Shown: positions 723-13,079 of the stretch, in pieces
Position numbering within the stretch: the stretch's first letter is position 1
Layout of the letters: every line of letters begins with the position of its first letter
IMG/VR virus record: IMGVR_UViG_3300040809_000007
Span: 1-21,094 of that record
Reading direction: 5' to 3' (one strand)
Length of the DNA stretch: 21,094 bases
Origin: a virus
Notes under the pieces: model-generated
The model's input: only the letters and a program-made list of their open reading frames with translations
Told to the model about the DNA's origin: nothing
The model's database searches: none
Program-made: the position numbers and the translations under genes

Positions 723-770
723 GTGTGAAAGTTGTTGACATTATGTGTGATTACTGTAGAATGATTCACA
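723..770 (+). promoter_or_regulatory. rightward early promoter with possible operator
   Basis: A consensus -35 TTGACA (735-740) and a -10 TAGAAT (757-762, five of six consensus bases) are separated by 16 bases, which predicts a start near 769 and a leader of about 38 bases before the first gene. The word GTGTGA occurs at 723-728 and 745-750, 22 bases apart. TGTGA at 746-750 is mirrored by TCACA at 766-770 across the -10. This suggests a repressor or activator site overlapping the promoter. The promoter is well supported; the operator is inferred. Confidence 0.65.
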
Positions 771-806
771 TGGAGTTGCACAACGCTGCTCGTCTAAAGG
801 AGAAAC

Positions 807-1040
807 ATGATGGCAACACTAAAGCAATTAAAAGCTGAAGCAGCAAAGCATAATGCAGAGCTAGTGATTGACAGAAAGTTTAATAGAGCTGAAGCGTGGC
901 TTTCAGAATCTGAGCAATGGGATGCCAGCGGAGCTTCTTGTATTGTAGTTGATTTTGGATGGCCTAACGCTGGAGTGATGCCAGACATCTACGATGCCTT
1001 AATTAAAGATATGCAATCAGGGAGCAAGAGAAATGTTTGA
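807..1040 (+). CDS. small protein of unknown function, first gene of the rightward operon
   Basis: This is a 77-residue protein. AAGGAG at 797-802 is 4 bases before the first ATG (807) and 7 before the second (810), so either methionine may be the true start. The N-terminal third is a lysine- and alanine-rich helix (MATLKQLKAEAAKHNAEL). The middle has aromatic residues (EAWLSESEQW), and the end holds a conserved-looking PDIYDALIKDM helix. I recall short phage proteins with a similar helix-then-strand pattern but no function for them. It follows the promoter at 735-762 by about 40 bases, so it would be among the first products made. It overlaps the next gene by 8 bases. Confidence 0.72.
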   Translation: MMATLKQLKAEAAKHNAELVIDRKFNRAEAWLSESEQWDASGASCIVVDFGWPNAGVMPDIYDALIKDMQSGSKRNV

Positions 1041-1287
1041 TGTTTATTGTCCACATTGCGGCGAACCGTATGACCAAGACGTATTCCATGAGCCAGAGGC
1101 TTTTGATGCTCCAAAAGGCAGCTACAAGGCGTCTGCTGCGCTTTTCAGAGCTAACGGCTGCGGTATGTTCCAAGCTGATCCAGCGATCTGTACACGGCCT
1201 GTAGTGGAGACTCCTGAGCGTATGGAGTTGATTAAGGCTGGCATGAAGCTAAGCGAGCATCCAGATGAGTGGCTTATGTTCCTTTAG
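1033..1287 (+). CDS. small cysteine-motif protein, possible zinc binder, unknown function
   Basis: This is an 84-residue protein starting inside the end of the previous gene, with GGGAG at 1021-1025 as ribosome binding site. The N-terminus holds a CPHC knuckle (C6, C9) and further cysteines lie at 43 and 53 (NGCG, then AIC). This could make a four-cysteine zinc site, although the spacing is not that of a classic zinc ribbon. The rest is acidic and mostly helical, ending in a tryptophan-containing tail (DEWLMFL). Phages often encode short CPxCG-type proteins of unknown role in early operons, and this fits that pattern. No enzyme motif is visible. Confidence 0.7.
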   Translation: MFDVYCPHCGEPYDQDVFHEPEAFDAPKGSYKASAALFRANGCGMFQADPAICTRPVVETPERMELIKAGMKLSEHPDEWLMFL

Positions 1288-1291
1288 TCAA

Positions 1292-1381
1292 GGACAAATC
1301 AGCCGAAAAAACCTGTGAATTTGTCCGTAGATAGCTTACGGACAGATTGACCAAAAAAAACATTAAATATGTCCGTAGGAG
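1292..1381 (+). promoter_or_regulatory. triple TGTCCGTA element with mutually exclusive hairpins over a ribosome binding site
   Basis: The only wide gap in the early operon (1288-1387) holds three complementary pairings, each a perfect 8 bp. GGACAAAT (1292-1299) pairs with ATTTGTCC (1319-1326). TGTCCGTA (1322-1329) pairs with TACGGACA (1337-1344). The same TACGGACA can instead pair with a second TGTCCGTA at 1370-1377. The pairings share bases, so they cannot all form. The last one ends at the AGGAG (1377-1381) that serves the gene starting at 1388. This looks like a translational switch or a cluster of protein binding sites. No T-run follows, so it is not a terminator. Confidence 0.55.
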
Positions 1382-1387
1382 AAATTT

Positions 1388-1600
1388 ATGCGAGATCCAG
1401 TTGATATAGATTTAAATCGCTATTTAGACGAGCAAGAGGCTGCGATAGAGGAAGAAGAGCAGGCTGAGCAAGATTTGTACCGAGACCGCTTGCAATTTGC
1501 TATGCGTATTTTGCTCGAAAAAGGCGATGCTGCTGACAAAGCAAGGCGCTTAGTGCGTTGGGTTGAAGGAGAAATTGAAGAAACTATTGAGAATCTGTGA
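1388..1600 (+). CDS. small acidic helical protein, unknown function
   Basis: This is a 70-residue protein starting with MRDPVDIDLNRYL, with AGGAG at 1377-1381 six bases upstream. A strongly acidic, glutamate-rich helix covers residues 14-32 (EQEAAIEEEEQAEQ) and is followed by an amphipathic helical region with RL..AMRILLEKG and KARRLVRWVEGE. It looks like a short all-helical, perhaps coiled-coil, protein. No family is recognised. Its ribosome binding site is inside the possible hairpin switch at 1292-1381, so its translation may be controlled. That control may extend to the overlapping genes downstream if translation is coupled. Confidence 0.7.
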   Translation: MRDPVDIDLNRYLDEQEAAIEEEEQAEQDLYRDRLQFAMRILLEKGDAADKARRLVRWVEGEIEETIENL

Positions 1601-11816: not shown

Positions 11817-13079
11817 ATGGCTAACAATCTTAATAGCAACGTCACACGGAAAGTCGCTCGTGTCTTCTTAGACGCTTTTGAGGCTTCTCGTGTAGTAACA
11901 AAAACTGTCAACACTCAACTGTTGTCAGGCAAGTTCAATCCTTCTAGCGGTTCAAATGTAGACTTCAAGCGTCCGCATGACTACAACACAATCCGCACTT
12001 CTGGCGGTGATATCAGCGCTTCTACTAAGTCAGACATCATTGCTGGTAAAGCAACTGGTACGGTTCAAAACTACTTCACAGCCGCTACAGAATGGGGCAA
12101 CGTGGAAGAGGCTCTTGAGCTAGACCAACTCGATCAAATCCTTGAGCCTATGGCTCGTCGCATCGTAACTGACCTTGAGCTTGATCTTGGCGCATTTATG
12201 CGTAAGAACGCAGCTCTGAACTATGGTGATCGTGGTACAGCGGTTGACGCATGGTCAGACGTTGCAGGCGCTGGCGCAATGATGGACTCTGTTGGCGTTC
12301 CAATGTCAGACGAAAAGTATTACCTGATGAACCCATTCACTACCACTGCACTGTCATCAGCGCAGAACGGTCTGAATGCGGCTGACGGCCTTGTCCGTAC
12401 AGCTTGGGAGAAAGCACAGATCAGCCAGAACTTTGGTGGCATGATGGCGCTGACTTCTAACGCTCTAAGCAGCTACACATCAGGCAGCACTACTGATCGT
12501 GCAGGCGCGCTAAATGGCGCACCAGATGCAACTTACGTCACAGCAAAAGATACTATGCAGCAGACTCTGGTTCTTGATGGTCTGGGTACTGGCACTATCA
12601 AAGCTGGTGATCAAGTTCAAATTGCAGGCGTTAATCGTTTGAATGTTGCTACTCGCCAGCTCATGCTTGACGAGACAGGCGCAGCAGTCCCTTGGACAGG
12701 TACTGTACTCGAAGATGTGACTATTGCTGGCAACGCTGCGACTATCACTGTCTCAGGTGCAGCTATCTACGAAGCTAATGGTCAGTACAACAATGTTGAT
12801 GCAGCTCCTGCTGACGGCGCAGTTGTAACTATCCTCGGCGCAGCATCTACTGTTTACCAGCCTAACCTGTTCTTCACTAAGCAGGCATTTGGTCTTGGTA
12901 CTGTTAAGCTACCTAAGCTGTACTCTACAGACACAATTGCAACTACCAGCGATGGTATGAGCATCCGTGTGTCTAAGTACGCAGACGGTGACGCCAACAC
13001 GCAGAAGATTCGTTTTGACCTTCTGCCTGCCTATGCTTGCTTCAATCCGTTGTTTGCAGGCCAAGGCTTCGGCAAGTAA
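11817..13079 (+). CDS. major capsid (coat) protein, P22 gp5 type
   Basis: This is a 420-residue protein with a good ribosome site GAGGTGAT (11803-11810) six bases before its ATG; P22 gp5 has 430. The start MANNLNSNVTRKVARVFLDA with LLSGKF, then TGTVQNYFTAATEW and EALELDQLDQILEPMARRI, matches the P22 coat family (HK97 fold) as I know it. A central region (about 230-335) is Thr-, Gly- and Val-rich and beta-like (GTGTIKAGDQVQIAGV, TVLEDVTIAGNAATITVSGA), probably the inserted I-domain of this family. The end FFTKQAFGLGTVKLPKL and LLPAYACFNPLFAGQGFG is again typical of the family. It builds the icosahedral shell with the scaffold. The gene ends just before a strong terminator. Confidence 0.92.
   Translation: MANNLNSNVTRKVARVFLDAFEASRVVTKTVNTQLLSGKFNPSSGSNVDFKRPHDYNTIRTSGGDISASTKSDIIAGKATGTVQNYFTAATEWGNVEEALELDQLDQILEPMARRIVTDLELDLGAFMRKNAALNYGDRGTAVDAWSDVAGAGAMMDSVGVPMSDEKYYLMNPFTTTALSSAQNGLNAADGLVRTAWEKAQISQNFGGMMALTSNALSSYTSGSTTDRAGALNGAPDATYVTAKDTMQQTLVLDGLGTGTIKAGDQVQIAGVNRLNVATRQLMLDETGAAVPWTGTVLEDVTIAGNAATITVSGAAIYEANGQYNNVDAAPADGAVVTILGAASTVYQPNLFFTKQAFGLGTVKLPKLYSTDTIATTSDGMSIRVSKYADGDANTQKIRFDLLPAYACFNPLFAGQGFGK

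Follow-up and report, generated by a model that had tools for sequence, protein, structure and literature searches.

Does the short gap behind an 84-amino-acid early gene of this phage hold an RNA switch, or a site in DNA? The window, an IMG/VR virus record of 21,094 bases, carries this gene at 1033–1287 (+ strand; the ORF was found in 26 relatives, and its product has no PHROG or Pfam match) and a second ORF, for a 70-amino-acid product (MRDPVDID...), at 1388–1600 (+). A sequence-only reading of the leader between them had described three perfect 8-bp pairings that compete for the same bases within 1292–1377, taking this to be the layout of a translational switch and naming a cluster of DNA operators as the alternative. 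All three pairings exist: GGACAAAT/ATTTGTCC (1292–1299/1319–1326), TGTCCGTA/TACGGACA (1322–1329/1337–1344), and TACGGACA/TGTCCGTA (1337–1344/1370–1377). Three 8-bp pairings within 97 nt arose in 0 of 20,000 dinucleotide shuffles of 1288–1384 (at least two arose in 6), and the sole places in the 21 kb with three pairings are the 97-nt stretches starting at 1281–1292. The three copies of a single word that had been counted are actually two of TGTCCGTA and one of TACGGACA; a further TGTCCGTA lies at 12392.

The pairings are not independent, and amount to one event, because the leader is a tandem duplication of an inverted repeat. Two direct copies of 39 nt, 74% identical and spaced at 48 nt, each contain a 35-nt inverted repeat (hereafter, dyad), at 1292–1326 and 1340–1374. 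Dyad 1, GGACAAATCAGCCGAAAAAACCTGTGAATTTGTCC, has arms at 1292–1299/1319–1326 and a central A6 on the + strand, and dyad 2 is GGACAGATTGACCAAAAAAAACATTAAATATGTCC; their profile scores of 34 bits (E 1.7e-8) and 23.6 bits, respectively, come from a model to which both window sites belong. Two adjacent palindromes of necessity allow inner and outer alternative pairing. Thus, the middle hairpin AATTTGTCCGTA-GATAGCT-TACGGACAGATT (1318–1348, +), which competes with both unit hairpins and is lengthened by the GTA/TAC ends of the 13-bp inter-dyad spacer GTAGATAGCTTAC (1327–1339), follows automatically from the tandem arrangement. The competing hairpins are best explained as a geometric by-product of two neighboring palindromes, and tandem palindromic DNA sites can thus mimic the layout of an alternative-fold riboregulator.

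The surroundings in the window are plain. By consensus matching, on which all promoter and terminator calls here are based, the only sigma-70-like promoter in 600–2200 is TTGACA-16-TAGAAT at 735–762 (+), about 530 bp upstream of the dyads; there is none at 1280–1390, beside them, which counts against a DNA site. No intrinsic terminator (GC stem plus T run) was found in 600–2200, and this identity for the window element was set aside. A blastn search of the leader against cultured phages gave chance matches only.

Several dozen related records were collected using the 70-amino-acid protein, the 84-amino-acid protein, the helicase, and DNA patterns as queries; all genomes compared are metagenomic fragments. 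In every near relative bearing the element at this locus, the 84-amino-acid gene precedes it, and the slot that follows occurs in five states. Two copies and then the 70-amino-acid gene are found in the window, L160, and L170. Five records (L166, L167, L174, L175, and L178) have two copies ending in TGTCCTGACGGAG and then a different 107-amino-acid gene (MSFSY...), which is unrelated to the 70-amino-acid gene and occupies its slot in most relatives, and three more (L176, L177, and L179) have a single copy with the same ribosome-binding module and the same 107-amino-acid gene. Seven (L157–L159 and L161–L164) have two copies, the second with T8 replacing A8, followed by a new promoter, and a further seven (L165, L168, L169, L171–L173, and L180) have no element after the 84-amino-acid gene. 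The 33.4-kb L190 record, also a near relative, has no dyad. The single-unit relatives therefore lack a competing fold, and in L166, L174, and L175, the third arm TGTCCTGACGGAG cuts the third pairing to a 5-bp core and leaves the Shine-Dalgarno (SD) sequence outside. Mutually exclusive folds are thus not conserved even among close relatives, and the translational switch, as a conserved mechanism, is left without support by the single-unit types, the altered third arm, and the unrelated downstream gene in most relatives.

The slot is a junction of exchanged cassettes, and near relatives can lose the element along with a cassette, which also counts against a DNA site. In L157, the dyad pair (2283–2314) scores as a strong intrinsic terminator with a 14-bp stem, and a TTGACT-16-TATGAT promoter lies downstream, 60 bp from the dyads; the flipped tract of copy 2 (T8 instead of A8) is equivalent as DNA, though not as an RNA loop. 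In one near-clade record (G002, locus L206), the sole copy, CTACGGACAAAAC-N17-GTTTTGTCCGTAG, is at another place, beside late-type genes.

Alignment of 25 sites gave the consensus SGACAAWTY-N6-TTTTTT-N5-GATTTGTCS, with a half-site SGACAAWTY at each end and a six-pair A/T tract that occupies positions 16–21 of nearly all sites and can be on either strand. Allowing at most one mismatch in the 16 arm positions, 26 distinct sites in near and distant relatives have a total length of 35, and no other length from 25 to 45 has more than one; 1.29 Mb of DNA from unrelated viruses yielded no site at 35 bp. Matches to the arm pattern in unrelated genomes and viruses show neither a length peak at 35 nor a central tract, and a host REP-like element was rejected on the same observation. 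Five 35-bp matches in L495–L530 were discarded because they appear to sit in conserved coding sequence (their context is near-identical across the five records), and an isolated match in L503, probably due to chance, was omitted from the logo. Cultured relatives recognized by their helicase (Vibrio phage 1.115.A and Pseudoalteromonas phage HS5) have no dyad. The arm words, the length, and the central tract are conserved across sites, and perfect complementarity, neighboring genes, and tract orientation vary.

The window and L170 share 89 of 90 leader bases, as against 20 of 27 fourfold-degenerate sites in the gene before the leader; identity in the following gene is 69–93% in sliding windows. 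With L166, unit 1 is identical at 41 of 42 bases versus 19 of 33 fourfold sites, and unit 1 varies only in the loop segment CCTGTG. The arm and tract sequence would then be either under selection or spread by recombination; because both flanks have diverged, selection seems the simpler reading. Between the arms, column 7/29 is unpaired (T-T) in 11 of the 25 sites and column 1/35 covaries (G-C in 14, C-G in 9, broken in 2); at 8/28, both sides are changed in the L206 site. In paired cells and in covariation score, the sites surpass every one of 500 shuffles, a result that dyad-symmetric DNA sites and kinship could cause too. Base pairing would also explain the changes at 1/35 and 8/28, which must be counted against a DNA site.

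A broader arm pattern run over viral contigs gave mostly chance matches, but one match, L357, lies in a distant relative; 80 loci were then fetched through relatives of the L357 helicase, and some bear the same dyad. Sites occur in L465, L482, and L489 and, as two copies, in L466, L473, L476, L478, and L504; L475 and L477 hold further copies, and in L459 and L463, the equivalent location carries weaker forms. They lie in the intergenic region to the right of a recombination operon, whose genes, named by eye, appear to encode Erf and a YqaJ-like exonuclease, and upstream of a conserved promoter, TTGACC-17-TAGACT. The one or two copies directly precede the −35 box of this promoter, which is divergent and leftward, and a leftward terminator follows them in the examples scanned or read. 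Being between the leftward promoter and the leftward terminator, the sites would not be carried on the operon mRNA. The operon also encodes a 67-amino-acid Cro-like XRE protein. Neither this protein nor the 84-amino-acid one was retained as a candidate dyad binder: the former was not found in near-clade records, nor the latter in the distant clade.

A conserved dyad of fixed geometry thus recurs at regulatory positions, as an operator would. Its recurrence at exactly 35 bases with a six-T/A tract in intergenic gaps makes a regulatory-protein site likelier than an RNA switch, and DNA is likewise favored by arms, spacing, and tract being kept while the tract lies on either strand and the flanking genes differ. 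Proximity to a promoter differs between records: the sites adjoin the leftward promoter in distant relatives, are 60 bp away in L157, and have none beside them in the window. From position and geometry, we infer an operator role, in which some regulator would bind the dyad and control transcription. Our preferred reading is that the element is an operator-like recognition site for a putative DNA-binding protein, apparently specific to the phage family of the window (probably an uncultured, marine, siphovirus-like one), with the RNA folds as a by-product; we give this reading as a whole a probability of about 0.52, and weigh a DNA recognition site over an RNA element at about 2.5 to 1. The operator alternative in the sequence-only reading thus fits better than its switch, except that the TGTCCGTA word by itself would not make up the operator, which would instead be the whole 35-bp dyad, including the central T6. 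That reading had also proposed that words kept in relatives without their complementarity would argue for operators, and this is mostly what is seen: distant arm words and the 35-bp length persist, whereas inner pairs break.

A transcribed hairpin in the early mRNA, acting as a translational switch or as a processing or stability stem-loop between cistrons, perhaps with a protein bound at the A6 loop, is the strongest competitor, though an unlikely one. The + strand leader RNA has a predicted minimum free energy of −25.2 kcal/mol versus −11.9 for shuffles (z −4.8; −2.3 for the − strand), and z is about −4 to −6 for the leaders of several relatives. A6 is on the transcribed strand in all near-clade units and at the L206 late-region site, except in L157 copy 2; the covariation at 1/35 agrees with pairing, and intercistronic stem-loops, GCGCCTC-TTCG-GAGGCGC, hold similar places before ribosome-binding sites in relatives. 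Against an RNA element are the single-unit relatives without an alternative fold, the absence of the 8-bp SD-proximal pairing from L166, L174, and L175, the inner pairs broken in 11 of 25 sites, a loop sequence that is not kept across clades, and the distant sites, which appear to lie outside the leftward mRNA. Rfam covariance models gave no match up to E 5 in 1200–1500 and none at the gathering score in the whole window.

Translational leader switches, such as operator RNAs of the T4 or ribosomal-protein type, place alternative folds near the SD sequence; in contrast, those of the window are not conserved, and its SD sequence is covered only partly. The SD sequence of the 1388 gene, AGGAG at 1377–1381 (+), had been described as buried by the last fold. 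The 8-bp arm itself takes only A1377, whereas the minimum free energy fold, in which the outer extension of dyad 2 (TTACGGACA/TGTCCGTAG) reaches the SD sequence, lengthens the third stem by two pairs and takes G1378 and G1379 too. Computed unpaired probabilities for A-G-G-A-G are 0.24, 0.30, 0.17, 0.54, and 0.91, because of which the SD sequence is predicted to be half covered rather than buried. The corresponding values are 0.03/0.03/0.03/0.95/0.96 in L170 and about 0.5–0.6 in L166, where the SD sequence is outside the unit stem; no SD-sequestering fold is conserved across the three. Loop-tail pseudoknots (loop CC with SD GG) were dismissed, being merely 2–3 bp in some variants as judged by eye, and so was an RNase III site, since the long fold of L166 types is missing from single-unit types.

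Two readings of the element as DNA compete with a recognition site for a regulator. As a cassette-junction linker, the repeated palindrome would mark a recombination hot spot that aids the exchange of early cassettes, a role suggested for the promoter-stem-loop (PeSL) elements of T4-like phages; one or two copies do occur in the same gene context, the slot after the 84-amino-acid gene holds different genes in relatives, some with their own promoters, and the L157 pair, an intrinsic terminator followed by a promoter, has the composite layout named in the title of a PeSL paper cited in PMC4503421. This is nonetheless improbable: the window element has no promoter or terminator, the distant sites are in a fixed regulatory region rather than a shuffled junction, and homologous recombination does not need a fixed 35-bp geometry. 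Slightly less probable again is a replication-initiator site, with the dyads part of a phage origin and the A/T tract a bend or melting point. An origin would fit with tandem A/T-tract dyads located close to recombination and helicase genes, in a divergent intergenic region; however, there are only one or two copies, their genome positions are not the same in the near clade, in L206, and in the distant clade, some near relatives (the L190 record, for example) have none, and no initiator was found.

If the dyad is a recognition site for a regulator, a putative protein in the distant clade would bind one or two dyads by the divergent promoter driving the Erf/exonuclease operon, and in the clade of the window, the dyad pair would have come to lie between early genes. 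The bound protein would act there on passing transcription or on the promoters of neighboring cassettes, and if translation of the 1388 gene were affected at all, that would be a secondary, lineage-specific effect. A more detailed version can be offered only tentatively, and is as a whole rather doubtful: a family-specific regulator would recognize a bipartite dyad, with half-sites almost three helical turns apart and an obligatory A/T tract, and the site would be mobile, shifting from one setting to another (a divergent promoter, gaps between early cistrons, or a late gap), its flipped copy becoming a terminator in one lineage. The RNA-switch story, unsupported by relatives, gives way to a specific, testable motif, which offers an entry point to the control of early genes in a phage family seen so far in metagenomes alone.

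Several described phage elements resemble the dyad in part. Extended start-associated sequences (ESAS) of cluster K mycobacteriophages are inverted repeats just upstream of the ribosome-binding sites of a subset of genes, which the authors preferred to regard as DNA-binding sites, mRNA hairpins having gained little support; they have 17-bp arms, a variable 4–13 bp spacer, and many copies associated with a 13-bp GGGATAGGAGCCC repeat (PMC3203893). The inverted repeats near a ribosome-binding site and the preference for DNA binding over an mRNA hairpin are shared, whereas the window arms are 8–9 bp, the span is a constant 35 bp, there is a central A/T tract, and copies number one or two; neither 17-bp arms nor GGGATAGGAGCCC at the start codon occur in the window, whose ribosome-binding sequence is GTAGGAGAAATTTATG. 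Stoperators of cluster A mycobacteriophages are repressor sites found in intergenic gaps, at a distance from promoters, where they act on transcription running through them (PMC9283540), and so provide a model for an operator inside an operon; they are short, asymmetric, and spread in numerous copies, unlike the dyad, which is symmetric, spans 35 bp, and occurs once or twice. PeSL combine a stem-loop and an early promoter at shuffled cassette junctions of T4-like phages (Arbiol 2010 and Comeau 2014, via PMC4503421). The L157 type, with its stem-loop and promoter at a cassette junction, looks alike, but the phage family is different, the window copy has no promoter (none at 1280–1390) or terminator, and in distant relatives the copies are tied to a divergent promoter in a fixed position. 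As the window lacks the defining sequence features of ESAS, stoperators, and PeSL, the dyad is filed as a new motif.

Some further features were observed nearby. In distant relatives, a conserved leftward RNA of about 126–141 nt, bounded by a TATACT −10 box and a strong terminator, adjoins the dyads (all − strand: L465 1287–1426, L466 2795–2935, L473 3393–3520, L476 4048–4173, L482 3119–3244, L484 3996–4128, and L504 1786–1911). It matches no Rfam family at cutoff. Its GAUGUUAUUCUCCUUUAG stretch can base-pair with the phage's own Erf mRNA in the SD/start region (duplex of about −22 to −40 kcal/mol), and the RNA may be an antisense regulator acting on the recombination operon. At 2–241 (−), the window carries the first part of a gene for an Erf-like single-strand annealing protein, whose Pfam ERF match (E 2.5e-4) does not reach the curated cutoff; the divergent region between this gene and the early promoter has repeated TGTATTGGCG and CGCCAATACA words at 338–455, possibly another operator set of the clade. 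A stem-loop, ATGGAG...CTC, is found 5′ in the transcript after early promoters (window 735–830, L157 2397–2460, and L166 about 1680–1720), and its arms vary between cassettes in a compensatory manner. The stem-loop GCGCCTC-TTCG-GAGGCGC, followed by ATAACTCTTGACGGAGA..ATG, joins cassettes in near relatives (1960–2003 in each of L168, L174, and L176, L191 2685–2728, L161 2682, and others); in L174, its loop is flipped to CGAA.
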